In this document: one piece after another, positions 30,052-56,505 of the stretch | Layout of the letters: the number at the start of each line of letters is the position of its first letter | How positions within the stretch are numbered: position 1 is the first letter of the stretch | Position numbers and translations under genes: made by a program | Assembly (NCBI GenBank): GCA_019429305.1 | Contig: JAHYIR010000007.1 | Coordinates: 1 to 64,000, forward strand | From: Candidatus Cloacimonadota bacterium | GTDB lineage: Bacteria; Cloacimonadota; Cloacimonadia; Cloacimonadales; JAJBBL01 | Direction: 5' to 3' | DNA length: 64,000 bases | Notes under the pieces: model-generated | Database searches by the model: none | Seen by the model: the letters and a program-made list of their open reading frames with translations, nothing else | Told to the model about the DNA's origin: nothing

Positions 30052-30225
30052 GAATAAAGATGTTCGTCTAATTGAATGTTTTTGGTAAGATTCATTGAGA
30101 TGAAAGTGACTATTTTCGGTGGTTAAACGTGAATCTCAAGAATGCGTTGTAAATATTTGCAGGGATTTTTTGCTTTACTTATATACCCTTTTTATATATA
30201 TTGATAGTAGATAGAAGAGGTGCTT

Positions 30226-32490
30226 ATGAAATACTTTTTTTTAATACTGATCCTGACTCTCTTGATTTATACGTTAATAGCTGAATCAACCGAGTATTTT
30301 CAGGGTGAATTGATCGTGCAGATCAAGGGTGATTTTCGCAACACAACGACTATTGAAGCAGATTTACAGAGATTAGAAGCAGATTTTTCAAACTATGGGT
30401 TGCGAGTCGAAAGAGTTTTATCGCGAAGATTAAGGATCTATCTAATATCTTTCAACGATGAAAGTATTACTACAGGTGAATTCTTGCAGACACTTAAACA
30501 ATATCCCCTGATTGAAGAAGCTCAATTCAATCATAAAGTATCACTACGTGCTACACCCAATGATCCCTTATTCAATCAACAATGGGCATTGTTAAACACC
30601 GGTCAGAGCGGAGGAGTACCCGGAGCTGATATAGATGCGACACTGGCATGGGATATAACAACAGGTGGGATTACTGCTAACGGGCGAGAAATAGTTGTTG
30701 CTGTAATAGATGATGGGTTTTCTTTAACTCACTCTGATATCAATTTTTGGAAGAATATCAATGAAATACCCGGTAATGGTATTGATGACGATGGAAATGG
30801 GTATATTGATGATTATGAAGGCTGGAATGCCTATAATAATACAGGTAACATACCGAGTGCCTCACATGGAACACATGTATCCGGCATAGTAGGGGCATTT
30901 GGTAATAATAATCTTGGTGTCTCGGGAGTGAATTGGAATGTCAAAATAATGCCGATTGCTGGTTCTTCATCTAACGAAGCAACAGTTGTAGCTGCCTATG
31001 GGTATGTTTATGAAATGAGGTCTCTTTATAACGAGACCAATGGTGATTTAGGTGCCTATGTAGTTGCTACCAATTCTTCTTTTGGTGTCAATTATGGACA
31101 ACCGGAGAATTATCCTCTCTGGGGGGCAATGTACGATGCGATGGGTGAAATTGGCATTTTAAGCGCTGCAGCCACTATGAATATCAATGCAAATGTTGAT
31201 AATGTAGGTGATGTTCCGACAGCTTTTCCCAGTCCCTATTTGATTAGTGTAACAAATACAACGAGAACTGATCAAAAAAGCACAAGTGCTGGCTATGGAC
31301 CTACTACTATAGATCTGGGAGCACCCGGTTCACAAATTCTCTCGACAGTACCGGGGAATAATTACAATAATATGTCGGGTACCTCTATGGCTTCTCCTCA
31401 TGTTGCCGGTGCGGTAGCTATGATGTATGCTGCAGCTCCTGTAGAATTGATTGACTTTTATGATGATTATCCGGGCGAGTTAGCATTACTCTTGAAAGAT
31501 ATGCTTTTAGAGAGTGTTGATGTTATTCCGGCTTTAGAGGGTATTACAGTCAGCGGAGGTAGATTAAATCTCAACAATGCTCTGCAGATGGTATTGGATT
31601 ATAATTCTGAAGATTTTACTCCGGCTCCTTTTAATCTGACCGCTGAATATACGGGAAATGAAGTTTTACTGAATTGGGAGGTTTATCAGTATAGAATTCC
31701 TCATTATTTCTTGATCTATCGAAATGGAGAAATCATTGCCTACCATGAATGTGATGATAATTGTTTTACTGATATCACAATTAGTAGTGGCTGGACTTAT
31801 GATTATTATGTGGTAGCCGGGTTTGAAGACCCTCCCGGAAATTCCAACCCTTCCAATTCGGCATTAGTTACTATTCCGCCAGCAGCTCCGATATTAATCT
31901 TTCCTGAGAATGGTGCAACTAGTACCGACACTGAATTAGTGTTTCAGTGGCAAGAGATGTATGGCAGTGAGAGTTATCTTTTAGAACTTGCTTTAGATTC
32001 GGATTTTGAGAACTTTTTTATTGAACCGGTAAGGATTGAAAATCCTTATTATCCAATTTCACAACTTCCAGAGAATACTACTTATTATTGGAGAGTACTC
32101 GCTATTAATATGGGTGGGAATAGTGAATGGTCACAAACATTCAATTTTACTACCGGATCCTCATCTTCTACTGACGATGAGTATATTGTATATCATACTT
32201 TATTACACAAAGTATTTCCCAATCCTTTTAACCTAAATAGCAACTCAAGAAACCAGAACCTGCAGATAACTTTCTCTATTCAAAACACAGGTTTTACAGT
32301 ATTAGATGTTTTCAACATTAAAGGTCAGTTGGTAATAAATATCGTTTCAGAAGTGCTTTCTTCCGGTCATCATTCTTTCTATTGGGATGGAAAAGATATG
32401 AGAGGGGATGCGGTCAGCAGCGGTGTTTATCTGGTAGTTATGACTAGTTCAGGTTACAAAGGGGTTATAAAGTTTCTATTGGTTAAATGA
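30226..32490 (+). CDS. Secreted subtilisin-like protease with FlgD-type sorting domain
   Basis: A 754-residue secreted S8 peptidase. It has a signal peptide, a roughly 90-residue N-terminal inhibitor-like region, then a catalytic domain with Asp162 (VIDDG), His217 (HGTHVSG) and Ser387 (GTSMASPH). One or two fibronectin III-like domains follow (from about residue 470). The C-terminal 80 residues read FPNPFN ... YNIKG-like ... GVYLVVM and end KFLLVK. That is a FlgD-like / T9SS type A sorting domain. It is a plus-strand gene inserted between two minus-strand halves of the purine cluster. I start it at the ATG at 30226 with GAAGAGG upstream. Confidence 0.88.
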   Translation: MKYFFLILILTLLIYTLIAESTEYFQGELIVQIKGDFRNTTTIEADLQRLEADFSNYGLRVERVLSRRLRIYLISFNDESITTGEFLQTLKQYPLIEEAQFNHKVSLRATPNDPLFNQQWALLNTGQSGGVPGADIDATLAWDITTGGITANGREIVVAVIDDGFSLTHSDINFWKNINEIPGNGIDDDGNGYIDDYEGWNAYNNTGNIPSASHGTHVSGIVGAFGNNNLGVSGVNWNVKIMPIAGSSSNEATVVAAYGYVYEMRSLYNETNGDLGAYVVATNSSFGVNYGQPENYPLWGAMYDAMGEIGILSAAATMNINANVDNVGDVPTAFPSPYLISVTNTTRTDQKSTSAGYGPTTIDLGAPGSQILSTVPGNNYNNMSGTSMASPHVAGAVAMMYAAAPVELIDFYDDYPGELALLLKDMLLESVDVIPALEGITVSGGRLNLNNALQMVLDYNSEDFTPAPFNLTAEYTGNEVLLNWEVYQYRIPHYFLIYRNGEIIAYHECDDNCFTDITISSGWTYDYYVVAGFEDPPGNSNPSNSALVTIPPAAPILIFPENGATSTDTELVFQWQEMYGSESYLLELALDSDFENFFIEPVRIENPYYPISQLPENTTYYWRVLAINMGGNSEWSQTFNFTTGSSSSTDDEYIVYHTLLHKVFPNPFNLNSNSRNQNLQITFSIQNTGFTVLDVFNIKGQLVINIVSEVLSSGHHSFYWDGKDMRGDAVSSGVYLVVMTSSGYKGVIKFLLVK

Positions 32491-37755: not shown

Positions 37756-37899
37756 TCTAATACTTGGAGAGATGTTAATGAAAAATCACTTTGTGGGAAT
37801 AAGAGTGTAGGGTTACTAATTCTCAGTCATAGCAGACTAAAAAGAGATTTCATAGAGTGTAATATGTTGTTTATATCAACAATTCGAGACATAAATTAC

Positions 37900-37905
37900 T
37901 TGACA
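37900..37905 (+). promoter_or_regulatory. Candidate -35 element for the first subtilisin
   Basis: TTGACA, 54 bases upstream of the ATG at 37954. No clear -10 box. Confidence 0.35.
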
Positions 37906-37953
37906 CTATTTTTCAAATTAGTTTTTTTCAGGGAAAAGAATAAGGATAGTGTT

Positions 37954-40461
37954 ATGAAAAGAAATGTTTTATTTATTTCGTTAGTCATCATTATTAGTTC
38001 TGTTTTGGCTTTATATGCTGTAGATAATAATGTTAGTTTTGGAGAACGCCCTTTCATCGATATTTATCAAGTCCCTGATGAGGCGATGGAACCGGGTAGA
38101 GTTTGGTTACAATTTCAGAGAGTTTATACCGAGTATCTTGATCAAGCTGAATTAACAAGAGACCAAAATGGTATTTTAATATTCGGTCTACCTGAAATAG
38201 ATGAACTGAACAGCTTATTTGAAGTCCATACAATAACGAAACTTTTTGATAGTCCTGCCTTGAAAAATGAATTTGCAGCTCGTCATCGTTTATGGGGCTT
38301 TCATCTCTGGTATGAATTACGCTTTGATTCAGAAGAGGATATCAGAGATATAGTTATGGCTTATCGAAAGCTAAAAGAGATTATTAGCTGGGTCGGACCG
38401 GAATACAAAAAGCAGCTGGTTTTTGACGAAGCTGAGCGTGTAAGTCGTTGGATACCAGACGATCCACAGTTTAGTAATCAATGGCATTATCATAATACCG
38501 GTCAGGCAGGAGGAACTCCCGGAGCTGATATCAGTTTGGTTGATGCTTGGGATATAGAAAAAGGAGATCCTAATGTTGTTGTTGCTATAATAGATGACGG
38601 TATACAGATTAATCATCCCGATCTTGCAGCTAATATATGGGATGGTGTGGGCTATAATTTCGTCAATAATAGTCCTAATATTTCTCCCGGAAATCATGGA
38701 ACCCATGTAGCTGGGACAGTGGCAGCCGTTAATAACAACGCTGTTGGTGTTTCAGGAGTGGCAGGTGGATCAGAAGCAGGTGATGGTATAAGTCTGATGT
38801 CTTGTCAAGTCTTCAGTGGCAGTAGTAGTGGTGGTTTTCATCTTGCTCCGATCTATGCAGCAGATAACGGTGCCAGTATTTCTCAGAATAGCTGGGGCTA
38901 TAGTGTTGCAGGAGCCTATGATCAGGCAGTACTTGATGCGATTGATTATTTCAATGCCAATGGTGGAGGTGATGCGCTTATCGGCGGAATTACAATTTTC
39001 GCAGCCGGCAATAGTAATTCTAGCGGAGCATGGTATCCAGGATACTATTCAGGCGCATTTTCTGTAGCGGCAACCAATAATCAGGACATACGATCATCAT
39101 ATTCAACTTACGGCACTTGGGTAGATATATCGGCACCGGGTGGTCAAACCAGTCCTCAGACACAAGGTGGTGTTCTCAGCACAATAACCGATAGCAGTTA
39201 TGCCTATTATCAAGGTACTTCCATGGCGTGTCCTCATGCTTCAGGAGTAGCAGCACTGATAGTATCTTTAGCATTTGGTCAATTGACAGCTCAAGAAGTA
39301 GCAGATATTTTGCGTGACACTACAGATGATCATTATCATCTCAATCCCAATTTTATTGGACAATTAGGAACAGGACGACTGAATGCTTATTCTGCTTTAC
39401 AAGAGACACAAGATTATATTGGAGGGGTTCTTAATCCACGAAGTTTCAATATCACATCGGTTACAACAGATCAAATAGATCTTTCTTGGGTTCGAAATGA
39501 TAATAACGACGAAGTTTTATTGGTTTGGTCAGATGATGGAGAGTTTGGTTTTCCCGAAGAAGGGGCTTTATATCAGGTTGGGCAACCCTTAGAGAATGGT
39601 GGTATTGTGCTTTATAGTGGGGGTAATACTTCCTATAACCATACAGAATTAGAACAAGCTACCAGATATTATTACAAAGTATTTTCATACAATTTTGAGT
39701 ATGAATATTCCAGAGGAAGAACAGTTTCAGCTTTGACCGATTATTTCCCTTTTACTTTACCATTTGTTGAAGATTTCGATGAGACGGCAATGCTACCGGA
39801 TTTTTGGTCAACGATCAGTACTGGTAATTCCTGGCAGGTTGGAACTTTCTCAGGAGGACTCACAGGAACTACAGGGAATTATGCATATGTTACCAGCCCT
39901 ACTTTTGGTTCTATAAACAGTGATTTAATAACTCCCAGATTCGATTTCTCTGATTTTTCCGAAGTAAATCTGACTTTCACTCATTATTTTACTAAAGGAT
40001 GGCTCTTTGCTGCTTCAGCTACAATATCTTACAGTATCGATAATGGTAATACATGGACATCACTACAATCATGGTCTTCTTCAATAAGTAATCCTTCATA
40101 TTTTAATCAGAGTATTCCTGCCTTAACAGGTGAATCTCATGTCAAATTTAGATGGAATTTTACTACCTCGTTGGTGAATGGTAGTTGGTCAATTGACGAT
40201 ATCCAAATCAACGGCAACTTATTGGCTATAAATGAACCAACAAATGTTCAGATCATTATAGAAGAAAGTAACATTGTTATTAGCTGGGATAGAGTTGAGT
40301 ATGCTACAGGTTATATTGTAGAAACCGCCAATGCCCCTGACTCTGTTTTTGAAGATTCAACGGAATCTGGTTTCTTTACTGAAGAGGGAAATACGATTTA
40401 CTGGCAAACAGAAGTAATTGATCCTATAAAACTATTTCGTGTTAGAGCAGTATCGGAATAA
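37954..40461 (+). CDS. Secreted subtilisin-like protease 1 with shared C-terminal module
   Basis: 835 residues. I start it at the ATG at 37954 with AAGGA upstream. After the signal peptide comes a roughly 140-residue N-terminal region shared with the next gene (FGERPFIDIYQ ... HRLWGFHLWYELRF). The S8 catalytic domain has Asp214 (IIDDG), His251 (HGTHVAG), an oxyanion Asn in FAAGNSN and Ser423 (GTSMACPH). A fibronectin-like region and a jelly-roll/MAM-like domain follow (DFDETAMLPDFW to IDDIQINGN). The last roughly 80 residues, from INEPTNVQIII to FRVRAVSE, form a module shared with four downstream secreted proteins. A terminator follows. Confidence 0.88.
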   Translation: MKRNVLFISLVIIISSVLALYAVDNNVSFGERPFIDIYQVPDEAMEPGRVWLQFQRVYTEYLDQAELTRDQNGILIFGLPEIDELNSLFEVHTITKLFDSPALKNEFAARHRLWGFHLWYELRFDSEEDIRDIVMAYRKLKEIISWVGPEYKKQLVFDEAERVSRWIPDDPQFSNQWHYHNTGQAGGTPGADISLVDAWDIEKGDPNVVVAIIDDGIQINHPDLAANIWDGVGYNFVNNSPNISPGNHGTHVAGTVAAVNNNAVGVSGVAGGSEAGDGISLMSCQVFSGSSSGGFHLAPIYAADNGASISQNSWGYSVAGAYDQAVLDAIDYFNANGGGDALIGGITIFAAGNSNSSGAWYPGYYSGAFSVAATNNQDIRSSYSTYGTWVDISAPGGQTSPQTQGGVLSTITDSSYAYYQGTSMACPHASGVAALIVSLAFGQLTAQEVADILRDTTDDHYHLNPNFIGQLGTGRLNAYSALQETQDYIGGVLNPRSFNITSVTTDQIDLSWVRNDNNDEVLLVWSDDGEFGFPEEGALYQVGQPLENGGIVLYSGGNTSYNHTELEQATRYYYKVFSYNFEYEYSRGRTVSALTDYFPFTLPFVEDFDETAMLPDFWSTISTGNSWQVGTFSGGLTGTTGNYAYVTSPTFGSINSDLITPRFDFSDFSEVNLTFTHYFTKGWLFAASATISYSIDNGNTWTSLQSWSSSISNPSYFNQSIPALTGESHVKFRWNFTTSLVNGSWSIDDIQINGNLLAINEPTNVQIIIEESNIVISWDRVEYATGYIVETANAPDSVFEDSTESGFFTEEGNTIYWQTEVIDPIKLFRVRAVSE

Positions 40462-40487
40462 GTAATAGACACCAACATTTTTATATT

Positions 40488-40520
40488 AAGAGACCAATTA
40501 ACTCCTGGTCTCTTTTTTTT
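40488..40520 (+). terminator. Rho-independent terminator
   Basis: Stem AAGAGACCA with TGGTCTCTT (9 bp) and a run of eight T residues. It ends the first subtilisin gene and separates it from the next. Confidence 0.85.
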
Positions 40521-40553
40521 AACAGCCCTTTAATAAAGCTCTTGAGATATTTC

Positions 40554-40559
40554 TTGACA
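40554..40559 (+). promoter_or_regulatory. Candidate -35 element for the second subtilisin
   Basis: TTGACA, 55 bases upstream of the ATG at 40609. TAAGAT lies 20 bases downstream (40580-40585). Confidence 0.4.
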
Positions 40560-40608
40560 ACTTTTTTCAGAAATAGCCATAAGATATAAAAAATAATAGG
40601 ATTATGTT

Positions 40609-43600
40609 ATGAGAAATTTGTTTTTATTTGTCTTAGCAATGCTCATCGTGTGTATTATATCAGATATTTACTCAATAGACAGTGAGGTTAGATTTGGAGA
40701 ACGTCCATATATTGATTTGTATCAAATTCCTACTGAAGCAATGGAGCAGGGCTGGATCAGAATACAGTTTAAAGAAGAATTGTCTGATTATCTAGATATA
40801 ATGAAATTAAGTAGAGAATCATCAGGAAATATTGTGTTTGGTATATCTGATTTTGATGAACTCAATAGATATTATGAAGTACAATCAGTAGTAAAGCTAT
40901 TTGATAGTTCTGTTTTGAAAGGAAAGTTTGAGGAACGGCATCGTTTATGGGGTTTTCACCTGTGGTATGAATTGCACTTTAACTCAACAGAAGACATCAG
41001 GGATATTGTGATGGCTTACCGCCAGTTGAGTGATATAATAAAATGGGCAGAACCGGAATACAAAAAACAGTTGAATAGCGAATTACTTTATACTCAAATG
41101 GATAATGAAGATTTGTTACGTTGGACACCAAATGACCCCCAGCTCAGTAATCAATGGCATTATCATAACACGGGGCAACAAAACGGTACCCCGGGAGCAG
41201 ATATTAGTCTCTTATCTGCTTGGGATATTGAGAAAGGTCATACCAGCGTTATTGTTGCCATCATAGATGATGGAATACAAACTAATCATCCAGATTTATC
41301 AGGAAACATTTGGAGTGGTGTTGGCTATAATTTTGTTGATGGTAATAGTAATATTATTCCCGGTAATCATGGAACTCATGTAGCGGGGACAGTATCGGCG
41401 GTAAATAACAATAACGTTGGTGTTGCAGGTGTTGCCGGTGGTTCAGGTACAGGTAATGGTGTGAGATTGATGAGTTGTCAGGTTTTTCGAGGAGGGAGCA
41501 ATGGTGGTTTTCATTTAGCACCCATCTACGCAGCAGATAATGGAGCCGCGATATCTCAAAACAGCTGGAGCTATACACAGGTAGGTGCTTATGACGTTTC
41601 TGTTCTGAATGCTATAGATTACTTTAATGCCAATGGTGGTGGCAATGTTCTCAATGGGGGTATCACTATCTTTGCAGCCAGTAATAACAATACCACCGGA
41701 CAATGGTATCCTGCTTGTTATACGGGTACTTTTTCAGTTGCTGCGACTAATAATCAAGATCAAAAAGCATGGTATTCAACATATGAATCTTGGGTAGATA
41801 TATCTGCACCGGGTGGAGAAACAAATCAAGTAACTGCTCGCGGAGTTCTAAGCACTGTTACCGGAAGTAGTTATTCATATTATCAGGGAACTTCTATGGC
41901 GTGTCCACATGCTTCAGGAGTTGCTGCTCTTGTAATTTCCTATGCTTATCGTAACGGTTTGGTTTTGAATAATTCCGAAGTTGCAGGTATTTTGAGAGAC
42001 ACGACAGATGATCATTACTCAGTTAATCCGAATTATATCGGACAATTAGGATCAGGAAGACTTAATGCACATACTGCTCTGATAGAAACAGGTAATCTGT
42101 TGATTGAAATAGAAAACCCAACCGATCTAGCAACAAATACTGTCGGATTAGCTCAGATTGATCTATCTTGGATTAATAACGAAGAAAACAATAACGTGTT
42201 GTTAGTATGGTCACCGACCGGAATATTTGGCAATCCCATTAGCGGAACTGCTTATAGTGTTGGACAGCAAATTCCCGGTGGTGGAACAGTTCTTTATCGA
42301 GGAAATGCAACAACATATAGTCATACTTTGCTTGAACCAGCAACTGTATATCACTACAAAGCTTTTTCATATAATTATCAAAATAGATATTCTTCTGGTG
42401 TGTCAACAACAGGTATAACAGATTACATTTCAATACCACTACCTATAAGTGAAGTTTTTGATGAAATTGATACGAAACCGTATTTTTGGGAAATAATTGA
42501 TCATCAAGGAAACGGGCAGGTTTGGGATTTTGGCACTATTAGTAACGGATTGACTGGAACGACAGGTAATTATGCCTTTTTAAATAGTAATGCTTATGGT
42601 TCGGGGAGCAGTCAAAATAGTGATCTGATAACCCCTATATTAGATCTGACCAATTACTATGATTTGATTGTTTCATTTACTCATTATTTTCGCCATTCCA
42701 CAAATTCAACAGCCACATTTTCGTATAGTATTGATAATGGTAATACTTGGTCAACTATCTCAACATGGACTGGTAGTTCATCCCCTAATCCTGCATATTT
42801 TTCTCAAGCGGTTTTGCAGGTACTCGGTCATTCAGAGGTTAGATTTAAGTGGAATTACACAGGAACTGGTGGCTGGTACTGGTGTGTTGATGATATTGAG
42901 ATTAGTGGATTAGCTTACGAATTTGCCGAGCCAAGAAACCTTGTTGCGATACCTAGTGATACAGAGGTTAATCTATTTTGGTCCTCACCATTAGATGACA
43001 CGCCATTGGGATATAACATCTATCGTAATCATCTTATAATAAATCCCGAATTGATTCTCAATTCATACTATGTTGATTATGAAGTAACAAATGGAATTTC
43101 TTATCATTATTATGTTACTGCACAATATGAACAAGGAATATCTGAACCATCAAATAATACAGTAGTAACACCATATATTACATTTCCCGTTTTACCTAAA
43201 CCAAATAACTTATCTGCAGGTGTTTTTAGTAATGCTATACTTCTGAGTTGGGAAGCCCCAGAGCTTGGTATATGGTTAAATTGGGATAAAGGAATCAATT
43301 ATTCATCAATTGGCAATGGTGGTCCCATTCAGTTTAAAGCAGCGATAAGATATTCATCTGCAATATTGGATATTTTGGATTTAAATGGTTTCTATCTTAC
43401 TAAGATAAAATTCTTTCCCAGAGAACAGAGTGCATCTTATACATTAAATGTATGGAAAGGTGGTAGTGAGACAGAGCCGGGCTATTTGATTTTAGAGCAA
43501 CCAGTTACTGTCTTCCAAGCTAATACCTGGAATACAATAGAATTGCAAACACCTGTCGATATCGATGCTGAGCAAGAAATTTGGTTCGGTTATTCTGTAG

Positions 43601-44697
43601 ATACGCAAACAGGATTTCCTGCCGGCTGTGACAGTGGTCCTGCTAATAACGGATATGGTAACATGCTCTGGTATAGTGGTGAGTGGACTACATTAACTGA
43701 AATGGGGGCTTCATTAAATTATAACTGGAATATCAAAGGGTATTTTGAATACTTAGATGATAATGAACTATATTCTTCTTTGCAGGGTGATGGAACTGAT
43801 GTTAATCTTCTCTTGGAAAATTCAAAGCAACTAAGGAGAATTAGTTTAAACGAAATTAATAATCATTCTAATAAAAGTAGTCACATTACCCGTAACTTAA
43901 TCCCCGAGATACTGGGTTATAATGTTTATCGGAATGGGTTGAACATTACTCCAGAGCCCATAACCTCCAGAGAGTACTATGATTATGATGTTGTTAGTGG
44001 GCTTAGCTATGATTATTATGTGACGACAATTTATACAAATGGTGAATCGGAACCATCAAACATAGTAGAAACTACTGCTCCGTTTTTTCCGATAATTATT
44101 GTTACACCTCAACAAATTGAGAAAGAACTATTTGTAGGAGAAATCGGTGAAGAAACGATAACAATTCGTAATGAAGGAGAGGGTAATCTGGAATTTACTA
44201 TCAGCATAGATGACAATCAAATACGAAGCGAATTAACTTTGTTAAACCGTGAAGATCCAACTTGGTTATCGATCTCACCTTTGGAAGGAGATATAAGTCC
44301 GGAAGATTCACTTTTAGTTTTTCTCGAATTTGATTCTACTAATTTATCAGGTGGTCTTTATGAGGCAGTACTAACAATTTCTTCTAATGACCCTCAAACA
44401 CCACAAATTGAGTTACCAATTAGTTGTACAGTTTTCTCACCCGATCTACCTTCTCCTCAGAATATTGATATTATTATTGATAACAATATGATTATCTTAT
44501 CATGGGACATAGTAACAGGAGCAGATTATTATATTGTTGAGATGACCGATGATATTAATTCTCAGTTTGTAAACATCAGTTCCGAACTAGGTTTATTTTC
44601 TCAGAATGAGAATAGAATTAACTGGTCGATGCCATTTGACAGTAGTCAACCACGTCTTTTCTTTAGAGTTAGGGCAAGTCATTTTATTGCAAGATGA
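40609..44697 (+). CDS. Secreted subtilisin-like protease 2, multidomain
   Basis: 1362 residues, a paralogue of the preceding gene with extra domains. It shares the N-terminal region and catalytic domain (Asp220, His257, Ser429 in GTSMACPH). Then come a fibronectin-like region, a MAM/jelly-roll-like domain (about residues 600-770), further Fn3-like segments (one with GYNIYRNHL, another GYNVYRNGL), a second jelly-roll region, and a BACON/ASPM-like Ig domain (PQQIEKELFVGE to PISCTV). It ends in the shared roughly 80-residue module (PSPQNIDIII to FFRVRAS). The size suggests an extracellular, possibly cell-attached protease. Confidence 0.87.
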   Translation: MRNLFLFVLAMLIVCIISDIYSIDSEVRFGERPYIDLYQIPTEAMEQGWIRIQFKEELSDYLDIMKLSRESSGNIVFGISDFDELNRYYEVQSVVKLFDSSVLKGKFEERHRLWGFHLWYELHFNSTEDIRDIVMAYRQLSDIIKWAEPEYKKQLNSELLYTQMDNEDLLRWTPNDPQLSNQWHYHNTGQQNGTPGADISLLSAWDIEKGHTSVIVAIIDDGIQTNHPDLSGNIWSGVGYNFVDGNSNIIPGNHGTHVAGTVSAVNNNNVGVAGVAGGSGTGNGVRLMSCQVFRGGSNGGFHLAPIYAADNGAAISQNSWSYTQVGAYDVSVLNAIDYFNANGGGNVLNGGITIFAASNNNTTGQWYPACYTGTFSVAATNNQDQKAWYSTYESWVDISAPGGETNQVTARGVLSTVTGSSYSYYQGTSMACPHASGVAALVISYAYRNGLVLNNSEVAGILRDTTDDHYSVNPNYIGQLGSGRLNAHTALIETGNLLIEIENPTDLATNTVGLAQIDLSWINNEENNNVLLVWSPTGIFGNPISGTAYSVGQQIPGGGTVLYRGNATTYSHTLLEPATVYHYKAFSYNYQNRYSSGVSTTGITDYISIPLPISEVFDEIDTKPYFWEIIDHQGNGQVWDFGTISNGLTGTTGNYAFLNSNAYGSGSSQNSDLITPILDLTNYYDLIVSFTHYFRHSTNSTATFSYSIDNGNTWSTISTWTGSSSPNPAYFSQAVLQVLGHSEVRFKWNYTGTGGWYWCVDDIEISGLAYEFAEPRNLVAIPSDTEVNLFWSSPLDDTPLGYNIYRNHLIINPELILNSYYVDYEVTNGISYHYYVTAQYEQGISEPSNNTVVTPYITFPVLPKPNNLSAGVFSNAILLSWEAPELGIWLNWDKGINYSSIGNGGPIQFKAAIRYSSAILDILDLNGFYLTKIKFFPREQSASYTLNVWKGGSETEPGYLILEQPVTVFQANTWNTIELQTPVDIDAEQEIWFGYSVDTQTGFPAGCDSGPANNGYGNMLWYSGEWTTLTEMGASLNYNWNIKGYFEYLDDNELYSSLQGDGTDVNLLLENSKQLRRISLNEINNHSNKSSHITRNLIPEILGYNVYRNGLNITPEPITSREYYDYDVVSGLSYDYYVTTIYTNGESEPSNIVETTAPFFPIIIVTPQQIEKELFVGEIGEETITIRNEGEGNLEFTISIDDNQIRSELTLLNREDPTWLSISPLEGDISPEDSLLVFLEFDSTNLSGGLYEAVLTISSNDPQTPQIELPISCTVFSPDLPSPQNIDIIIDNNMIILSWDIVTGADYYIVEMTDDINSQFVNISSELGLFSQNENRINWSMPFDSSQPRLFFRVRASHFIAR

Positions 44698-44779
44698 TAG
44701 AGATTTATTGTTAAAGGCATTTTAAATGATTGATACTCATACAGTTATTGGTTAGGCATATTTGCACTAAGGAGTGATT

Positions 44780-47700
44780 ATGTTAAGAAAACTTTCTATT
44801 ATGACTTTTTTTATCTTTTTTTGTTTTATAGTGATCCAACAAGCTTTTGCAGCTTATTTGGAATTTGTTCCTACAGAGATAATTCAACCAGAGGGAGAGA
44901 TTATTAGTTGTTATGCTTCTGGGGATGAGTTCTTTAACTGGTTGCATGATGTAAATGGATTCACAATAATTGTCGGGATAGATGGTTATTACTATTATGG
45001 CATCACTGATGGTGATGATGTTGTACCAACGAGTTACAGAGTTAACAGTGTTGATCCTGCTAGTGTTGGGCTATCACCATGGGTTAAGATATCAGAAAGA
45101 GCTTATCAAGAACGACGGGCAATTTTTAATGATCCAATTGAAAGATCAACAGTAAGGGCACCACACACCGGAACGATGAATAACCTTGTTGTCTACATCA
45201 GATTTGCTGATGATACTGAATTTACTATTCCCCGCAGCACTTATGATGCCAATTTTAATGATCTGAGTGGCAGTTCCGTGAGAAGTTATTTTCAGGAAGT
45301 ATCCTATGATCAATTGGATATTGTTAGTCATCATTATCCGATATGTGATCTAACTACTAATCTTTCTTATCAGGACAGTAATCCTCGCGGCTATTATCAA
45401 CCATACCATGAAGTAAATAATCCGATAGGATATACAGGTGGAGACAATGGTTACGAACGAAGAATCAGAGAGCATACACTTCTACAAAATGCTATACTTG
45501 CCATAAGAAGTCAGGTTCCTACAGATCTAAATATCGATGGCGACAATGATGGTTATGTAGATAACGTCAGTTTCATTATCAGAGGCAATTCAGGTGGCTG
45601 GGCAGAACTTCTTTGGGCACACCGTTGGGTTTTATATACTTATGATGTGAGAATCAATAATAAACGAGTCTGGGACTATACTTTTCAACCTGAGAATCAA
45701 TGTGATGTTTATGTACTTTGTCACGAGCTTTTTCATGCATTAGGAGCTCCGGATCTATATCATTACAGTTATGATGGTTTTGTGCCGGCTGGTCCTTGGG
45801 ATTTGATGCATTCAGGGTTTGTTCATATGGGTGCTTGGATGAAATATAAATATGCAAATCAAGCATGGATCTCGAATATTCCTGAGCTTACAACATCAGG
45901 TACTTATACACTAAATCCACTATCCTCGGCAACTAATAATGCCTATAGAATTGCTTCTCCATTTTCTGCAACGGAGTTTTTTGTAGTGGAATATAGAAAA
46001 CAGATGGGATTATTCGAATCTAATCTTCCCGGTTCAGGTCTACTTGTATATAGAATTGATTCGACTCTCAATGGTAATGCCCAAGGTCCTCCCGACGAAG
46101 TATATATATACCGACCTAATGGTACACCCACTGAAAATGGCTTAATTAATTCAGCGCACTATAACAGTAGTGTAGGTAGAACAGAAATCAATGACTATAC
46201 AACCAATCCGATAAGTTTTCTTTATAATGGTGGTCCGGGTGGATTAAATATACATTCTATCGGTATAGCTGGTGAAACTATATCTTTTACCATTAACATA
46301 GGACTACCGGAAATACCAATTAATCCGCAACCGGAAGATGAAGCATTCTTTGTTTATCTGAACAATCCTCTTAGTTGGACTAATGGCGGAGGGGCTACCG
46401 GTTATTATTTATCAGTTTGGAAGAATTCACCGTTTGAGTACTTATTAGAGAATCACTATTTAGAAGATACGACTTACCTTTTGTCATCACCCTTCGAAAC
46501 TTTAACAACATATTATTGGCGAGTGGATGCTGTCAATATGTACGGAACAGAAATAGGTGATGTATGGTCATTTACCACTGGTACAGAGCTTGAACCTCTG
46601 GCCGTTAATATAGGTACAGGAAGTACTCTGGCAAACTACATTCCCTTGAATATGTACTGGAAAAATAGTCTTACTCAAACGATCTATTATGCAAGTGATA
46701 TAGGAACTGAAGGTCTATTGACTCAAATCACATATTATAACAATTTCGTGACCAATTTGCCAGGTAAACCGGTGAAGATTTGGGTTGGTGAGACCTCATT
46801 GTCTAATCTGAGTAGTGGTTGGATTCCATCTACATCGCTCAATCTCGTTTTTGATGGATTAGTTGATTTTCCTGCAGGTGTTAATAACATCAATATACCA
46901 TTACAGATACCTTACCAGTATAATGGTCAAAATCTTGTCGTAATGGTCAACAGACCGATGGACAACCAGTATTATAATTCTAATGACAGATTCTATGTTA
47001 CTTCAACTGCGGTTTCTAATCGAACTCGTTATCAGTATTCGGATAGCACTACCTATGACCCAGCAAACCCATCCGGTGGCACGCTTACTAATCAAGTACC
47101 CAACACTACATTATTACTCCAAACAGAAGCAACTGATCAACCAGAAATTTTAATCAGTCCGGATATGATAAATAAGCTAATGATGATGAACTCTCAAAGT
47201 AGTGAGGTATTCGTCATTGATAATCAAGGTTCAGGAGAATTAGAATATCGCATAACCATAACTTCCGGCGACAGAAGAGATTCTCTGGATAGGAGTATAA
47301 TTGGTTCCACCTTAACCTGTAGCGAAGAAACTTTTTTACCGGGAACGACAGAAGATTGGGTTTTCACCGTATTTAATGCCAGCACAGATAACGAATGGTT
47401 AAAGGATGTCTATATCACTTTTCCCACTGGTGTAGTAGTTAACTCTGCTACTCCTTTTGTAGGGGGTACAGGTGGAAATATGAATCCTGATACAACAAGT
47501 GGTCATAATATACAAATTCATTGGCATGGTAGCGGTTCTTCGGGATGGGGGGTTGTCTATCCAAACCAGTCGGCAGTTGCTACTGTTAATGTTACTATTT
47601 TATCACCTTTTGTTGGAGATATTGAACTTCCCTTTCAGATAAATGGTGATGAGTATGGCTCTCAACCACATACACTTAATGGAATTATTACTTTAGAGAA

Positions 47701-48157
47701 TGTTCAAGATGAAATTAATTGGTTAAGTGTAACACCAGTATCGGGAACTATTCTACCAACTGGATCACAAGAAATTTTAGTGGAATTCGATTCTAATGAA
47801 CTAACGTTAGGCAATTACAGTAAAACAATCGTAGTTACAAATACTGATCCCAACTCACCACAGATAATAATTCCGGTTAACTTGAATGTAACAGATCTGA
47901 TTCTAGATCCTCCACAGAATGTATCCATTTCTATTGAAAATGGCTGGATAGAATTATCATGGGATATAGTTGTTGGAGCAGATCAGTATATTGTTGAAGT
48001 AACTGATGATATCAACAGCGAATTCTCTGATATTAGTTCTTCACAAGGGGAGTTTGCTGATAACGAAAACCGAATAACATGGTCTATGGAAGTTAATGAG
48101 AACGAAAGCATACTCTTGTTTAGGGTTAAAGCAGTACATGATTTTCAGCGCAAGTAG
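44780..48157 (+). CDS. Secreted M6-family metalloprotease with shared C-terminal module
   Basis: About 1125 residues from the ATG at 44780, which has AAGGAG upstream. It has a signal peptide, an M6 (immune inhibitor A-like) propeptide and catalytic domain with the zinc motif HELFH (His315, Glu316, His319) followed by ALGAPD. A fibronectin-like region (about 510-610), a jelly-roll-like stretch, and an Ig/BACON-like region with SGELEYRI...NWLSVTP follow. The final roughly 80 residues (DPPQNVSISI to FRVKAVHD) are the shared module. It follows the two subtilisins on the same strand. Confidence 0.88.
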   Translation: MLRKLSIMTFFIFFCFIVIQQAFAAYLEFVPTEIIQPEGEIISCYASGDEFFNWLHDVNGFTIIVGIDGYYYYGITDGDDVVPTSYRVNSVDPASVGLSPWVKISERAYQERRAIFNDPIERSTVRAPHTGTMNNLVVYIRFADDTEFTIPRSTYDANFNDLSGSSVRSYFQEVSYDQLDIVSHHYPICDLTTNLSYQDSNPRGYYQPYHEVNNPIGYTGGDNGYERRIREHTLLQNAILAIRSQVPTDLNIDGDNDGYVDNVSFIIRGNSGGWAELLWAHRWVLYTYDVRINNKRVWDYTFQPENQCDVYVLCHELFHALGAPDLYHYSYDGFVPAGPWDLMHSGFVHMGAWMKYKYANQAWISNIPELTTSGTYTLNPLSSATNNAYRIASPFSATEFFVVEYRKQMGLFESNLPGSGLLVYRIDSTLNGNAQGPPDEVYIYRPNGTPTENGLINSAHYNSSVGRTEINDYTTNPISFLYNGGPGGLNIHSIGIAGETISFTINIGLPEIPINPQPEDEAFFVYLNNPLSWTNGGGATGYYLSVWKNSPFEYLLENHYLEDTTYLLSSPFETLTTYYWRVDAVNMYGTEIGDVWSFTTGTELEPLAVNIGTGSTLANYIPLNMYWKNSLTQTIYYASDIGTEGLLTQITYYNNFVTNLPGKPVKIWVGETSLSNLSSGWIPSTSLNLVFDGLVDFPAGVNNINIPLQIPYQYNGQNLVVMVNRPMDNQYYNSNDRFYVTSTAVSNRTRYQYSDSTTYDPANPSGGTLTNQVPNTTLLLQTEATDQPEILISPDMINKLMMMNSQSSEVFVIDNQGSGELEYRITITSGDRRDSLDRSIIGSTLTCSEETFLPGTTEDWVFTVFNASTDNEWLKDVYITFPTGVVVNSATPFVGGTGGNMNPDTTSGHNIQIHWHGSGSSGWGVVYPNQSAVATVNVTILSPFVGDIELPFQINGDEYGSQPHTLNGIITLENVQDEINWLSVTPVSGTILPTGSQEILVEFDSNELTLGNYSKTIVVTNTDPNSPQIIIPVNLNVTDLILDPPQNVSISIENGWIELSWDIVVGADQYIVEVTDDINSEFSDISSSQGEFADNENRITWSMEVNENESILLFRVKAVHDFQRK

Positions 48158-48209
48158 GAAGTTATTGTTTTTAAGTATTTAAGATAGATTGATTAAATTA
48201 TAAAATATC

Positions 48210-48215
48210 TTGACA
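48210..48215 (+). promoter_or_regulatory. Candidate -35 element for the first alpha/beta hydrolase
   Basis: TTGACA, 61 bases upstream of the TTG start at 48271. TTAATT follows at 17 bases. Confidence 0.4.
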
Positions 48216-48270
48216 AATAATAACTTTCAGATTTAATTATCTTGTTAATTTTATGTCCAAGGAGGCATAA

Positions 48271-49356
48271 TTGAACAAGAAGTTTTTTTTATTTATCTTA
48301 TTAACTTGCATTGCAGTAAGTCTTTTTTCTTATGCGATAGAGCAGTTTGCTATAACTTTTATTGATCCGAGTCGCAATAACAGGCAAATACTGACCCAGA
48401 TCTTTATACCTGTTGATAATGATTCAAGGACTGAAGACGAATCATTTCCCTTCATAGTTTTCGGTCATGGATATACAACTTCTTACTCTAATTATAACAG
48501 CGTCTGGGAAGCTTTGGTACCACTCGGTTGGATCATGGCATTTCCCACAACTGAAGGGGGAGTTTTTGCTAACACTGAACAATTTGCCCTTGATCTGGCA
48601 TTCCTCAGTTTTGCTATTCCCGCAGCTGGTGAAAACCCATCATCACTACTTTATGATTTAGTAAAACCCATATCTGTTGTCATTGCTCATTCCATGGGTG
48701 GAGGTTGTTCAGTTCTGGCGGCAAGTTATGCTAATAGTTTTGATTCACTTGTAACCTTAGCTGCTTGGCGTCTCTTTGATTCGTCTCCAATTGATGCAGC
48801 TTTTAACGTCTATCTCCCCTCATTGACTTTTGCCGGAGCAGATGATGATTTCATACCACCTGAAAATAATCAACTTCTGATCTATCAAAATCTCAATTCT
48901 ATCTATAAGGTATATTTGTTAATGGACGGAGTAAATCATTCTCAAATCTATAATAATGATGATGTTTTTTATCTGATAAGTCAGTGGTTGGATTTTATAG
49001 TAACAGAAGAGACAGACTATCTTGCTTTATTTGAGAACACATTAGAGAGTTATGAAACAGAGACTATACTTACTTATATGATTCAAAACCGGTATCCTCC
49101 TCAGAACCTTACCATAGCAGTCGATAGTGGTTGGATCGTATTAACATGGGACAAAGCATTAGGAGCAGATTATTATATTGTGGAAGCGACAAATGATCTA
49201 TTGAACCCATTTTTTGATATTAGTACAGGGCAAGGATCATTTTCGGAGACAGAAGATAGTGTAAGCTGGACTTTTTTGCCGATATCAGAACAAAATATTC
49301 TCTTCTTTAGGGTAAGAGTTGAACGCAATACAGATCAAAGAAACAGTACTTTTTAG
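48271..49356 (+). CDS. Secreted alpha/beta hydrolase with shared C-terminal module
   Basis: 361 residues starting at TTG with GGAGG upstream. After the signal peptide it has an alpha/beta hydrolase domain. The nucleophile is Ser141 in AHSMGGG, the acid lies in AGADDDFIPP, and the histidine in GVNHSQIY. The fold resembles chlorophyllase/dienelactone-hydrolase-like esterases (FPFIVFGHGY). The last roughly 80 residues (PPQNLTIAV to FFRVRVE) are the shared module. It is a tandem paralogue of the next gene. Confidence 0.85.
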   Translation: MNKKFFLFILLTCIAVSLFSYAIEQFAITFIDPSRNNRQILTQIFIPVDNDSRTEDESFPFIVFGHGYTTSYSNYNSVWEALVPLGWIMAFPTTEGGVFANTEQFALDLAFLSFAIPAAGENPSSLLYDLVKPISVVIAHSMGGGCSVLAASYANSFDSLVTLAAWRLFDSSPIDAAFNVYLPSLTFAGADDDFIPPENNQLLIYQNLNSIYKVYLLMDGVNHSQIYNNDDVFYLISQWLDFIVTEETDYLALFENTLESYETETILTYMIQNRYPPQNLTIAVDSGWIVLTWDKALGADYYIVEATNDLLNPFFDISTGQGSFSETEDSVSWTFLPISEQNILFFRVRVERNTDQRNSTF

Positions 49357-49430
49357 TTTGATTTTTCCTTTCTCTATATTATATTTTTATTCATAGAGTA
49401 CTGAACAGTGTATTAACAGTGGAGGAAATT

Positions 49431-50516
49431 ATGAGAAAAAGGATCATATTTGTTTTTATATTTAGTTTTATTCTTTTGAATCTATTTTCATACTCGATCC
49501 ATCAGGTGAGCATTTCTTTTATTGATCCCGACCGTAATAACAGACAGATACCTACTCAGGTTTTCATTCCGGTTGATATTGAATCCAACCGACAAAGTGA
49601 ACAGGAATTCCCGTTTATCGTATTTGGACATGGCTTCCTGCAATCTTATACCGTTTATCAGTCAGTTTGGCAAGCTATCGTTCCTTTGGGTTGGATAATG
49701 GCATTTCCCACAACTGAAGGAGGGTTTTCACCCAGTCATCAAAATTTTGCCCTTGATATTGCCTTTCTCAGTTTTGCCATCTTAGAAGCTAGTGAAGACC
49801 CGGCTTCACCTCTCTATAACAAAGTGAAACCAATATCAGTTGCTATGGGGCATTCTATGGGTGGGGGAGCAAGTGTCCTGGCAGCCAGCGGAACCCATGA
49901 CTTTTCGGCTTTAGCTACATTTGCTGCTGCTGATACTAATCCTTCAGCCATTAATGCCGCTCTGAATGTTAATGTACCATCTCTGACTTTTTCGGGAACG
50001 GCTGATTGGGTTACTCCACCTTCATCACATCAAATTCCCATCTATAACAATCTAGCTTCTATTTACAAAAGTTTTATCTCTCTTAATGGAGTTGGACATG
50101 CAGGAATTTATTCTAACAATATTGCATTAACGCTCTTAGCAGAATGGCTCTATTTTATTGAAAGCAAAGAAATTGCTTATCTAGTATCATTCGAAGATCT
50201 TTTAGATGGTTTTTTCAATAATGGTAATATCACCTACGCTATCGAAAACTATTATCCTCCGGAGAATATCGCTATTTCAATAGAAAATGAGGTATTAACC
50301 ATTTCTTGGGATAAGGCATTAGGAGCAGATCACTATATAGTTGAGGCAACGGATGATATCAACGGTGTTTTCAACAATATCAGTTCCGATCAAGGGAATT
50401 TCACAGAAATAGACGAGATAGTATTTTGGAGTTTTCCTATTGATTACAGTGAGTCACGATTATTCTTCAGAGTAAAAACAATGCGAAGTACCCTCAATAA
50501 TACTAATATCCAGTGA
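49431..50516 (+). CDS. Secreted alpha/beta hydrolase, tandem paralogue
   Basis: About 361 residues from the ATG at 49431 with GGAGG upstream. Same architecture as its upstream neighbour: a signal peptide, a hydrolase domain with Ser142 in GHSMGGG, an acid in GTADWVTPP, a histidine in GVGHAGIY, and the shared C-terminal module (YPPENIAISI to FFRVKTM). Substrate unknown; an extracellular esterase or lipase is likely. Confidence 0.85.
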   Translation: MRKRIIFVFIFSFILLNLFSYSIHQVSISFIDPDRNNRQIPTQVFIPVDIESNRQSEQEFPFIVFGHGFLQSYTVYQSVWQAIVPLGWIMAFPTTEGGFSPSHQNFALDIAFLSFAILEASEDPASPLYNKVKPISVAMGHSMGGGASVLAASGTHDFSALATFAAADTNPSAINAALNVNVPSLTFSGTADWVTPPSSHQIPIYNNLASIYKSFISLNGVGHAGIYSNNIALTLLAEWLYFIESKEIAYLVSFEDLLDGFFNNGNITYAIENYYPPENIAISIENEVLTISWDKALGADHYIVEATDDINGVFNNISSDQGNFTEIDEIVFWSFPIDYSESRLFFRVKTMRSTLNNTNIQ

Positions 50517-52579: not shown

Positions 52580-54112
52580 ATGATTATGAAAATTCAAAAC
52601 CCTAATCCCGGATCCAATGAGCATATTAACAGTAAAAGGATCAAATTCATTCTCAATGGAGTAGAGAAGTCAATAATAGTCCCTCCGGGAATAACCCTGT
52701 TGGATATGCTGCATAATAAACTCAATCTCTACGGTACCAAATCAACCTGTAATGAGGGTGATTGTGGATCGTGTACTGTGATCATTGGGAAACGAGAAGA
52801 TGATAAGATAATCTATCAGGCAGTCAATTCCTGTCTCTATCCGGCAGTTCGTATCCACAATAAACATCTGATAACGATAGAAGGAATAGGAACACCGGAT
52901 AAACTTCATCCGATACAAGAAGCTCTTTTGGATCACCACGGAACCCAATGCGGATACTGTACCCCCGGTTTTGTGATGGCACTTTTAGCTCTCTTCATGC
53001 ATAACCAGAATCCTGAAAGATCTGACATATTCAAGGCATTGGAAGGGAATCTTTGCCGATGTACCGGTTATGATGCTATCTTTCAAGCTACTATGCACTT
53101 GAGGGGAAAGTTGGAAACCGGAAATTCACTCTTACCAGCCAAGCTAAGTGGTGCAGAAGAAAAAATTGGGAAGCTGGATGAAACAGTAGAAGAGATAGTT
53201 CAAGAGAATAGAGAACTACTGGGCACAATAGGTTATTTACAACCCAAGACGATCAATGAATTATTACAATTTTTACAGAAATTTCACTCAACTGAAGAAT
53301 ATGGTTTGATCAATGGAGCGACTGATTTGCTTGTCCAGGCAAATGTCAACCGGATGTATCGACCTTGGTTGATTGATATAACAGAGATCCCGGAGCTACG
53401 TTCAATAAAGAATGAAGGGGATAAAATAGCTATTGGAGCAACCGTCGTTCTGTCAGAGATAGCAAAATCTCAGATCATCCAGGAACACTTGCCTGTTTTT
53501 ATCAAGACGATAACTTTGATAGCTTCAGAGCAGATCCGGAATTTAGCGACTTTAGCAGGAAATATAGGTAATGCTTCCCCTGTGGCAGATACCCCTCCAG
53601 TGTTGATGGTTCTCGATGCCGAATTAGAATTGACCTCTGCTGACGGTAAGCGGCTTGTCAAATTGGGTGATTATTATCTCGATTATAAAAAAACGGCCTT
53701 AAAACAGGGTGAGTTTATCTCTCGCATAATAATTCCTAAATCCCAAAATGGTTTCTATTATCACGATATGCAGAAAGCAGCTAAGAGGCGAGCGGTAGAT
53801 ATATCGTCAGTAAATTCAGCGATCTCAATACTAATCATAGATGAAAGAATTGAGAATGTAGGGATCGCTTTTGGTGGAGTAGCCCCCTATCCTGCACTGG
53901 CAAAGAAGACAATGTCTCTGATAGAAGGGAGGCAGCTGGAACCTGAGTGGTTTGCTGAGGCAGCAGAAACTGCAGTGTCGGAGTTCACTCCTATCAGTGA
54001 CGTGCGGGGAAGAGAGGATTACCGAAGAGTATTGATTCGTAATCAAATGATGAATTACCTGATCAATTGTTATGAACAATATCAGAAATCGTTGAAAAGT
54101 GAGAAGAGGTAA
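52580..54112 (+). CDS. Xanthine dehydrogenase small subunit (2Fe-2S plus FAD)
   Basis: 510 residues fusing two units. Residues about 20-180 hold two [2Fe-2S] sites (CNEGDCGSC with a later Cys; TQCGYCTPG; LCRCTGYD). Residues about 215-500 are a molybdopterin-dehydrogenase FAD domain (GYLQPKTINEL, NGATDLL, TLAGNIGNASP). It delivers electrons from the Mo subunit encoded two bases downstream to NAD or another acceptor. The start may be at 52580 or the ATG two codons later; the ribosome binding site is weak. Confidence 0.92.
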   Translation: MIMKIQNPNPGSNEHINSKRIKFILNGVEKSIIVPPGITLLDMLHNKLNLYGTKSTCNEGDCGSCTVIIGKREDDKIIYQAVNSCLYPAVRIHNKHLITIEGIGTPDKLHPIQEALLDHHGTQCGYCTPGFVMALLALFMHNQNPERSDIFKALEGNLCRCTGYDAIFQATMHLRGKLETGNSLLPAKLSGAEEKIGKLDETVEEIVQENRELLGTIGYLQPKTINELLQFLQKFHSTEEYGLINGATDLLVQANVNRMYRPWLIDITEIPELRSIKNEGDKIAIGATVVLSEIAKSQIIQEHLPVFIKTITLIASEQIRNLATLAGNIGNASPVADTPPVLMVLDAELELTSADGKRLVKLGDYYLDYKKTALKQGEFISRIIIPKSQNGFYYHDMQKAAKRRAVDISSVNSAISILIIDERIENVGIAFGGVAPYPALAKKTMSLIEGRQLEPEWFAEAAETAVSEFTPISDVRGREDYRRVLIRNQMMNYLINCYEQYQKSLKSEKR

Positions 54113-54114
54113 TT

Positions 54115-56505
54115 ATGGCAAAGAGACCTTGGCATATCAGCGGTAAACTACACATAACAGGAAACTCGCGTTTTATTGGAGAAGAGCCCAAACCGGAAGG
54201 AATTCTCTCTGCGAAATTACTCTTCAGCCCGGTTGCTCATGCCCAGATAAACAAATTAGACATCTCACCGGCATTAGCCATGAAAGATATCACTACTGTC
54301 CTGACAGCAAAGGACATCCCCGGTAAGAATAAACTGGGACATTTGTTCGATGATGAACCTCTATTAACTGTAGAAGAGATAACCTATGTAGGTCAACCTT
54401 TGGCAATTGTACTCTCTTCTTATCCCAACGTAGCTGCTGAGGGGACAAAGCAGATCATTCTTAAGTATAAAGAGCTTAAACCGCTCCTCAGCATCAGAGA
54501 TGCAGAAGAAAACAAATCTTGGTATGTTCCGGAAAGAGTATTCGAAAACGGTGATCTGAATAAAGGATTCAAAGATTCTGCCTTTATATTAGAAGGGGAG
54601 ACAGAAACTTCAACCCATGAACATTTTTATTTTGAGACGCAACGATGTATAGCAGTTCCCGGAGAAGGTGAACAAATGACGGTCTATTCTGCAACTCAGA
54701 GTACTATGGAAGTACAGGAAGCTGTTGCCAAAGTATTAGGAACAGCAGTGCATAATGTGATTGTTGATGTGATGCGTCTCGGTGGGGCTTTTGGAGGAAA
54801 GGAGAGCAGGGCGACAATCTTTGCCTGTTTAACAGCATTAGCAGCAAAGATAACCGGTAAACCGGTAGAACTTAAGTTAAGCAGGAAAGAGGATTTTCTC
54901 TATACAGGTAAACGACACCCTTTCTGGAGCAGATACAAAGTCGGCTTTGATGAATTGGGTTGTATCAATTCCTATGATGTAGAACTGGTTTCCAATGGTG
55001 GTGCTTATACAGATCTATCGATAGCCATCTTACAGAGAGCTATGTTTCATGCCGAAAATGCTTATTATATCCCTAATGTAAGGATCAGAGGGAGAGCATG
55101 CAGGACAAATCTACCTCCAAATACAGCATTTAGAGGTTTCGGCGCACCTCAGGGAATTTATGTAATTGAGAGCGTAATCGAACGGATTGCCTATACCCTG
55201 AAAAAGGATCCGATGGAGATCCGCCGTCTCAATTCCTATCAATCAGGACAAATAACCCCTTATGGACAAGAAGTGCAAGAATCCGATATGGTAAAACTCT
55301 TCGACAGATTGATAGAAAAGAGTAATTATGAACAACTAAAGAAAGAAACAATAGATTTCAATAAAAAGAATGATCGTAAAAAAAGAGGGCTGGCTGTAGT
55401 TCCCGTTAAATTTGGTATTTCATTCACCTCACCTGTACTTAATCAAGGTTCAGCACTGGTCTGGATCTATATCGATGGAACGGTTTCGGTAACTACCGGT
55501 GGTGTTGAGATGGGGCAGGAGGTAAATACTAAAGTTGCAGCAGTAGTTTCCAGAGTTTTGGGCATATCTCGCGATAATATCCGTGTAGAGAGTAGCAATA
55601 CTCAGCGAGTTGGTAATGCCTCTCCGACGGCTGCATCTACAGGTAGTGATATCAATGGTAACGCTGCCCGAATTGCTTGTGAAGAATTGCTTTCCAGATT
55701 GCTTCCTCTCGCGGCGGAATTGTTAGAAGCAAAGAACAGCGTTAAACCTGCTCCCGGTTCGATTGTATTCGAAGATGATAAAGTATTTGATAAAAAATTT
55801 CCACTCTTTGTACTTTCTTTCCCTGAGCTTATCCAACAAGCATACGACAGACGAATTGCCTTAGGTGCTTACGGTTATTATAAAACACCGGGTATCTGGT
55901 TTGATAAAGACAAAAACAAAGGGAATCCCTTCTATTACTATGTCTATGGGTGTGCTTTGGTTAGAGTAGAGATTGATCTGATGACAGGAGAGAACAAGTT
56001 ACTGGAAGTCTATATTATACATCAGAACGGGAAATCACTCCATATTGATGTAGATAGAGGTCAGACAATCGGGGCTTTTATGCAATCATACGGCTGGTGC
56101 ACTATCGAAGAGATGCCTTGGGACGATAAGGGGCATTATCTCGCTTCGACAGTATCTACTTATAAGATCCCCTGTATTCGTGACTTGCCGGAAAAACTGG
56201 AAGTTGAACTGATCGAATCTGAGAATGAATATGCCAGTGTATTAGGTAGTAAAGCGGTTGGTGAGCCACCCTATATATATGGAGAGGCAGCACATTTTGC
56301 AATTAAAAATGCTCTGCAATCAATGTCTGAAGAGGAGATCTCATTACCTTTCCCGGCAACTCCTGAAGCAGTTCTGATGACAATAGAGAAGATCAAGAAA
56401 AAGAATCCAACAAAAGTAAAAATAGCAGAAAATCTGATAAAAAAGACAACAAAACCGAAACCGAAAATCAAATCAATAATTTCAGGGATCGAGCCTGAAT
56501 TATAA
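54115..56505 (+). CDS. Xanthine dehydrogenase molybdenum-binding subunit
   Basis: 796 residues. It has the XDH hallmarks GGAFGGKE, AFRGFGAPQ, GGVEMGQEVN (Glu equivalent to the substrate-binding Glu), ASPTAASTGSDINGNA, and the catalytic glutamate in GSKAVGEPP. These match true xanthine dehydrogenases. The C-terminal tail (last 35 residues) is lysine-rich and extends beyond usual homologues. An AGAGGT site lies in the end of the small-subunit gene. The two subunits together oxidise hypoxanthine/xanthine or work in the reverse direction on urate. Confidence 0.93.
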   Translation: MAKRPWHISGKLHITGNSRFIGEEPKPEGILSAKLLFSPVAHAQINKLDISPALAMKDITTVLTAKDIPGKNKLGHLFDDEPLLTVEEITYVGQPLAIVLSSYPNVAAEGTKQIILKYKELKPLLSIRDAEENKSWYVPERVFENGDLNKGFKDSAFILEGETETSTHEHFYFETQRCIAVPGEGEQMTVYSATQSTMEVQEAVAKVLGTAVHNVIVDVMRLGGAFGGKESRATIFACLTALAAKITGKPVELKLSRKEDFLYTGKRHPFWSRYKVGFDELGCINSYDVELVSNGGAYTDLSIAILQRAMFHAENAYYIPNVRIRGRACRTNLPPNTAFRGFGAPQGIYVIESVIERIAYTLKKDPMEIRRLNSYQSGQITPYGQEVQESDMVKLFDRLIEKSNYEQLKKETIDFNKKNDRKKRGLAVVPVKFGISFTSPVLNQGSALVWIYIDGTVSVTTGGVEMGQEVNTKVAAVVSRVLGISRDNIRVESSNTQRVGNASPTAASTGSDINGNAARIACEELLSRLLPLAAELLEAKNSVKPAPGSIVFEDDKVFDKKFPLFVLSFPELIQQAYDRRIALGAYGYYKTPGIWFDKDKNKGNPFYYYVYGCALVRVEIDLMTGENKLLEVYIIHQNGKSLHIDVDRGQTIGAFMQSYGWCTIEEMPWDDKGHYLASTVSTYKIPCIRDLPEKLEVELIESENEYASVLGSKAVGEPPYIYGEAAHFAIKNALQSMSEEEISLPFPATPEAVLMTIEKIKKKNPTKVKIAENLIKKTTKPKPKIKSIISGIEPEL

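Follow-up and report, generated by a model that had tools for sequence, protein, structure and literature searches.

Five secreted enzymes encoded in the window (the whole stretch of DNA analysed here, 64,000 nucleotides from a Candidatus Cloacimonadota genome) end in a common domain which, on sequence grounds, we take to be a new class of C-terminal sorting signal derived from an FN3 domain and probably used by the T9SS as an alternative to the type A tail. We place the probability of this reading at roughly 0.6. The module is probably an undescribed address label that sends proteins to the cell surface or to the outside.

A shared C-terminal module on five enzymes

The sequence-only reading had described a C-terminal pattern common to five unrelated secreted enzymes. 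The pattern is present in all five proteins (Table 1), but they represent only three families: the two S8 proteases (57% identity over 794 residues) and the two alpha/beta hydrolases (about 52% identity) are pairs of paralogues, and the M6 protease is the third family. A five-way alignment of the modules contains 18 invariant columns and gives a domain length of ~75 residues. When profiles were trained without the family of the left-out protein, each left-out copy was recovered at its C-terminus, with E = 2e-12, 6e-31, 1e-32, 4e-23 and 1e-27 for the proteins W1 to W5 in the order of Table 1, whereas 0 of 2000 composition-shuffled controls scored at E ≤ 10 with the same profiles. The module of the first S8 protease is the most divergent of the five copies; the real start of this protein is probably the internal MKRNVLF. 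No Pfam or NCBIfam model matches the module segment above its cut-off in any of the five proteins. A further S8 protease of the window, included as comparator, scores 28.0 bits with TIGR04183 (above cut-off, genome search) and is not matched by the module profile.

Table 1. Positions of the module-bearing genes, the comparator and the PorV-family paralogues. Positions are those of the window unless a contig of the source genome (G000) is given.
Feature	Gene	Strand	C-terminal domain	Evidence
S8 protease, first	37864-40461	+	module 40222..40458 (last ORF residues)	A1/A2 profile matches
S8 protease, second	40609-44697	+	module 44437..44694	profile matches
M6 protease	44774-48157	+	module 47894..48154	profile matches and AlphaFold2 model
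alpha/beta hydrolase, first (PETase-like by Pfam)	48271-49356	+	module 49084..49341	profile matches
alpha/beta hydrolase, second (PETase-like by Pfam)	49419-50516	+	module 50244..50498	profile matches
S8 protease, comparator without module copy	30220-32490	+	type A T9SS tail 32212..32478	TIGR04183
PorV-family paralogues	G000:C3:112110, C3:96568, C6:105114, C25:11017, C23:6724			

The second S8 protease and the M6 protease have their 187 C-terminal residues in common (43% identity). This block consists of a BACON/HYDIN-like Ig domain and the module that directly follows it, as if both had moved as one block. Elsewhere in the window, the regions 27735-30002 (- strand) and 52580-56505 (+ strand) resemble molybdenum enzymes of the xanthine/aldehyde dehydrogenase type; the former matches MoCo-binding domains and 52580-54112 shows, by eye, likeness to an FeS/FAD subunit.

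Copies in the source genome

The window originates from an assembly of 2.39 Mb that is 99.9% complete (labelled G000). The five-protein profile picked up further, more diverged copies in this genome, and a profile rebuilt from 24 copies detects 26 copies with strong scores (E < 1e-12) plus two weaker copies that are also C-terminal, with the wider consensus P-x-N-V-x-I ... L-S-W-D-x-V-x-G-A-x-S-Y-K-V-Y-S-S-x-D-P-Y ... K-K-F-Y-x-V-x-A. All 26 strong copies are located at the extreme C-terminus of their protein, either with or without a tail of about 20 residues. The carriers include S8, C25, M6, M12-like and M14 peptidases, endonuclease I, hydrolases, FG-GAP and GLUG proteins, and some short proteins with little besides the module. 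An obvious Sec-type signal was found with a simple hydrophobicity scan in 21 of the 25 module proteins checked in this genome; of the other four, two are cut off at their start by a contig edge, and two are short frames whose start is not visible. Just past the end of the window (G000:C7:65030-71600, L106) lies a gene for a 2192-residue protein that combines a C25 peptidase, a PAD_porph (peptidyl-arginine deiminase family) domain and a module.

Distribution across genomes and position in the protein

Of 125 Cloacimonadota genomes, 112 have module matches (E ≤ 1e-3), as do 67 of the 71 good ones, with up to 43 per genome, although weak matches among these counts may be ordinary fn3. The narrow alignment A4 was used to scan 84,980 species genomes, the broad alignment A3 being too diverse, and gave 73 loci: 49 in Cloacimonadota, 19 in Delongbacteria, two in UBP11, two in further bacteria and one in Gracilibacteria. 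The last was rejected as an ordinary internal fn3. The domain is thus found throughout Cloacimonadota and also in Delongbacteria and UBP11, as the profile search proposed earlier was meant to establish. Its absence from Bacteroidota is only suggestive, because the collection scan requires exact motifs. Nine genomes from Delongbacteria, UBP11 and the further bacteria hold 18 to 72 profile matches each. If the sorting reading is true, these numbers, together with the 26 strong copies of the present genome, give the scale of a large enzyme set that secretome predictions miss across whole phyla of uncultured degraders.

When all loci are pooled, 164 distinct copies have a visible end, and 160 of them are C-terminal (≤ 60 residues from the stop); the sample comprises the best matches and is no census. 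The four exceptions come from three loci and have the module at the N-terminus, straight after the signal peptide: residues 57-124 of 1384 in L185, 46-109 of 375 in L207, and 21-93 and 40-111 in two ORFs of L136. Downstream of these copies, FGE/SUMF1-like or DUF3494-like sequence was recognised by eye, and no type A tail was found in these proteins. In L186, at least 98 residues extend beyond the module up to the contig end. The sequence-only reading proposed to check whether the domain is always at the C-terminus of signal-peptide proteins and regarded equally frequent internal hits as evidence against a sorting function. Such an even distribution was not found among the 164 copies, and in the source genome a Sec-type signal is present wherever the N-terminus is visible; 'always', however, does not survive the four N-terminal copies. 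For a T9SS tail the expected position is the C-terminus, and the N-terminal copies count against a strict C-terminal signal.

The same N-terminal placements favour the main rival explanation, in which the proteins would be exported by some route, be it the T9SS acting without a recognised tail or a different one, and the FN3-like domain at their end would bind a surface or scaffold partner in the manner of a dockerin. FN3 domains commonly bind proteins or glycans, which fits such a role. There is also a precedent in another genus of the phylum, Ca. Stygibacter, whose cellulosome-like system includes S8 and C25 peptidases that end in dockerins (PMC8542988), like the module a C-terminal domain on secreted enzymes of these two families. 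The modules differ from these domains in having an FN3 fold and no dockerin match (Pfam; none among 43 module members). Docking would moreover leave the module proteins without a recognised outer-membrane export signal, none of them having a type A tail too, and a partner gene was not found. We regard surface docking as a possible but minority explanation.

Predicted fold and comparison with described families

AlphaFold2 modelled the module of the M6 protease, with 60 relatives, at a pLDDT of 91 as six strands, the last of which spans residues 76-82 of 88. The model of a tailed relative has the same core, with strands A, B, C, C', E and F (labels based on the order of the strands and on the FN3 matches), followed by a low-confidence, unstructured tail. 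Foldseek searches against the PDB gave weak Ig-like matches and no more for the first model, and FN3 domains as best matches for the second (5g56 and 3mpc; 1.8 A over 74 columns). At the profile level the module likewise matches FN3 domains in the PDB, whereas a profile of the type A tails of this genome matches FlgD, PorU and T9SS CTDs. The module is hence predicted to be a fibronectin-III fold that ends at strand F, without strand G, which bears out its earlier description as Fn3-like. Among the copies from all loci, K or R is the last residue in 40 of 60 tailed modules (tail ≥ 8 residues) and in 38 of 100 short ones, and the 60 tails are basic (K+R 24%, D+E 13%). That these basic tails supply strand G was considered as well, but AlphaFold2 gives no support for it.

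The module shares with FN3 domains (PF00041; PDB 3mpc and 5g56) the fold, the tryptophan of strand B, the tyrosine of strand C and the YxVxA of strand F. It differs in the missing strand G of the models, in its restriction to the C-terminus and in its scores, with 11 of 43 members matching PF00041 weakly (best E 8.3e-5) and 0 of 43 exceeding the gathering cut-off. An ordinary accessory FN3 domain, for instance a glycan-binding one, that is last in modular enzymes by chance would account for the fold and for the further fn3 domains that are frequent in module proteins. It fits poorly with the position, as the other fn3 domains of this genome are internal, ahead of type A tails, whereas the module is almost always terminal, and with the carriers, whose unrelated types include proteases, a nuclease and short proteins that contain hardly anything besides the module. 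We consider this explanation unlikely.

Three tail classes of T9SS cargo (A, B and C) are currently recognised, as listed in a 2023 review (PMC10202324). Type C (NF033708, ChiA) comprises C-terminal cargo tails outside A and B (PMC10202324) and resembles the module in being such a tail; NF033708, however, matches none of the module sites, its best match in the genome having an E of 0.036. Type B (TIGR04131 / PF13585) is, like the module, an alternative tail class in genomes that use type A, but the type B model does not match the modules. Type B genes usually lie in a cluster with genes for PorP/SprF shuttles (PMC10202324); no such clustering of module genes was seen with the PorV family, which the gene search covered. 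Weak NCBIfam matches of the module to unrelated families (E 0.02-0.1) were dismissed as chance.

The type A tail (TIGR04183 / PF18962) is a close counterpart of the module. Both are terminal, about 75-80 residues long and shaped as an Ig-like sandwich, both occur on Sec-signal proteins of the same enzyme families in the same genomes, and they are swapped among paralogues. Nevertheless, no sequence relation was found: the modules do not match TIGR04183 / PF18962, and in hhalign the module and the type A tails of this genome do not align (probability 0.8%). The type A tail is a seven-stranded 3+4 sandwich whose last strand, beta7, carries a conserved Lys motif essential for secretion (PMC11285876). 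This strand is missing from both module models, as predicted by AlphaFold2, and the terminal basic residue seen in 105 of 109 type A tails is a rule that the modules follow only partly. Given the missing beta7 strand and the non-aligning profiles, the module would not be a type A tail, despite occupying the same slot, and the earlier statement that it differs from the FlgD-like sorting domain of the comparator S8 protease (seen at 30226-32490) stands. A diverged type A, B or C tail would explain the shared terminal slot, the similar length, the Ig-like sandwich and the aromatic FYR strand near which both module and type A tail finish; against it stand the missing matches to TIGR04183, TIGR04131/PF13585 and NF033708, the profile comparison and the different PDB matches, which make it very improbable. 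No curated model of an Fn3 or CTD family covers the module, nor did we find a description of an FN3-like T9SS tail or of a Cloacimonadota sorting domain in the openly licensed literature. The most fitting classification of the module is as a proposed new class of C-terminal sorting domain rather than under A, B or C.

Exclusion of and exchange with type A tails

No open frame of this genome or of the pooled loci combines a strong module with a type A tail; three type A-tailed proteins hold internal fn3 domains with weak module scores. Both kinds of C-terminus occur on close paralogues. Four S8 paralogues of this genome end in the module and a fifth, 68% identical (G000:C31), in a type A tail, of which the first half alone is visible before the contig end. 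The tail type was read on a tree of 33 phylum-wide homologues of the first S8 protease of the window, in which L327, L328 and L332 were scored as module from a partly visible domain. It switches at least four times, all four switches being forced by well-supported branches and some of them falling within this genome and within genome G041, where both types are present.

Three tandem gingipain-like C25 genes (G000:C12:22633-35471, L367) carry, in order, two type A tails and one module. The module-ended protein (C12:31155-35471) and its type A neighbour (C12:26745-30971) share 82% identity in the catalytic domain; counted from the signal peptide, they share 69% over about 1060 residues, and beyond that they diverge. 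A second pair consists of the module-ended C25 peptidase at G000:C7, which lies just beyond the window, and a type A-tailed C25; their catalytic domains are 78% identical. In these exchanged pairs the region ahead of the tail differs too, so more than the module was exchanged. Judged from these trees and alignments, module and type A tail appear to have replaced one another repeatedly in evolution, as expected if both serve the same step. Close paralogues that differ in their tail, above all the tandem C25 genes, make T9SS recognition directly testable by tail swaps. Tails can be specific to a species (PMC11285876).

Secretion machinery and possible recognition of the module

Co-occurrence with export genes, a check proposed in the sequence-only reading, was observed: SprA (TIGR04189) is present in every good Cloacimonadota genome (71 of 71) and in each of the nine module-rich genomes from other groups that have terminal modules. 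The Gracilibacteria genome with the ordinary fn3 locus gave no SprA match. SprA was also unmatched in thirteen less complete genomes, some of them with modules, as expected because these assemblies are incomplete. TIGR04183 tails occur in 123 of 123 Cloacimonadota genomes; since the T9SS is universal in this phylum, co-occurrence with the module within it is not discriminating. The suggestion that the module could be an undescribed sorting domain draws its support from several features together, namely the Sec-type signals, the terminal position, the exclusion of and interchange with type A tails, the SprA-carrying genomes and the lack of a curated family.

In the proposed mechanism, the protein would be exported by Sec, and the folded module would be recognised by T9SS components (SprA and a PorV-family shuttle), which would hand the protein on to the surface or the medium. 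As the models lack strand G, the site of the beta7 motif of type A, the module would have to be read via another surface. A candidate is the free edge of strand F with its conserved KKFYxVxA, an open edge that might speculatively be completed by a strand of the receptor. We also entertain, with considerable doubt, the more specific proposal of a fourth T9SS signal class that arose from a strand-losing FN3 domain, operates parallel to type A in Cloacimonadota, Delongbacteria and UBP11, and receives its missing strand from a PorV-family paralogue or SprA. We know of no report of strand donation by a receptor for T9SS cargo.

Type A cargo uses a shared shuttle and type B cargo a dedicated, linked one (PMC12618676). 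For the module a shared shuttle of the type A kind seems likelier than a dedicated one encoded nearby, given that the module genes of this genome have no PorV-family gene within about 4 kb. The genome encodes about 90 type A tails, 13 C25 peptidases and several PorV-family genes above cut-off. Some of the PorV-family paralogues adjoin type A-tailed genes, and the one at C23:6724 adjoins a C25/PorU-like gene with a weak type A tail.
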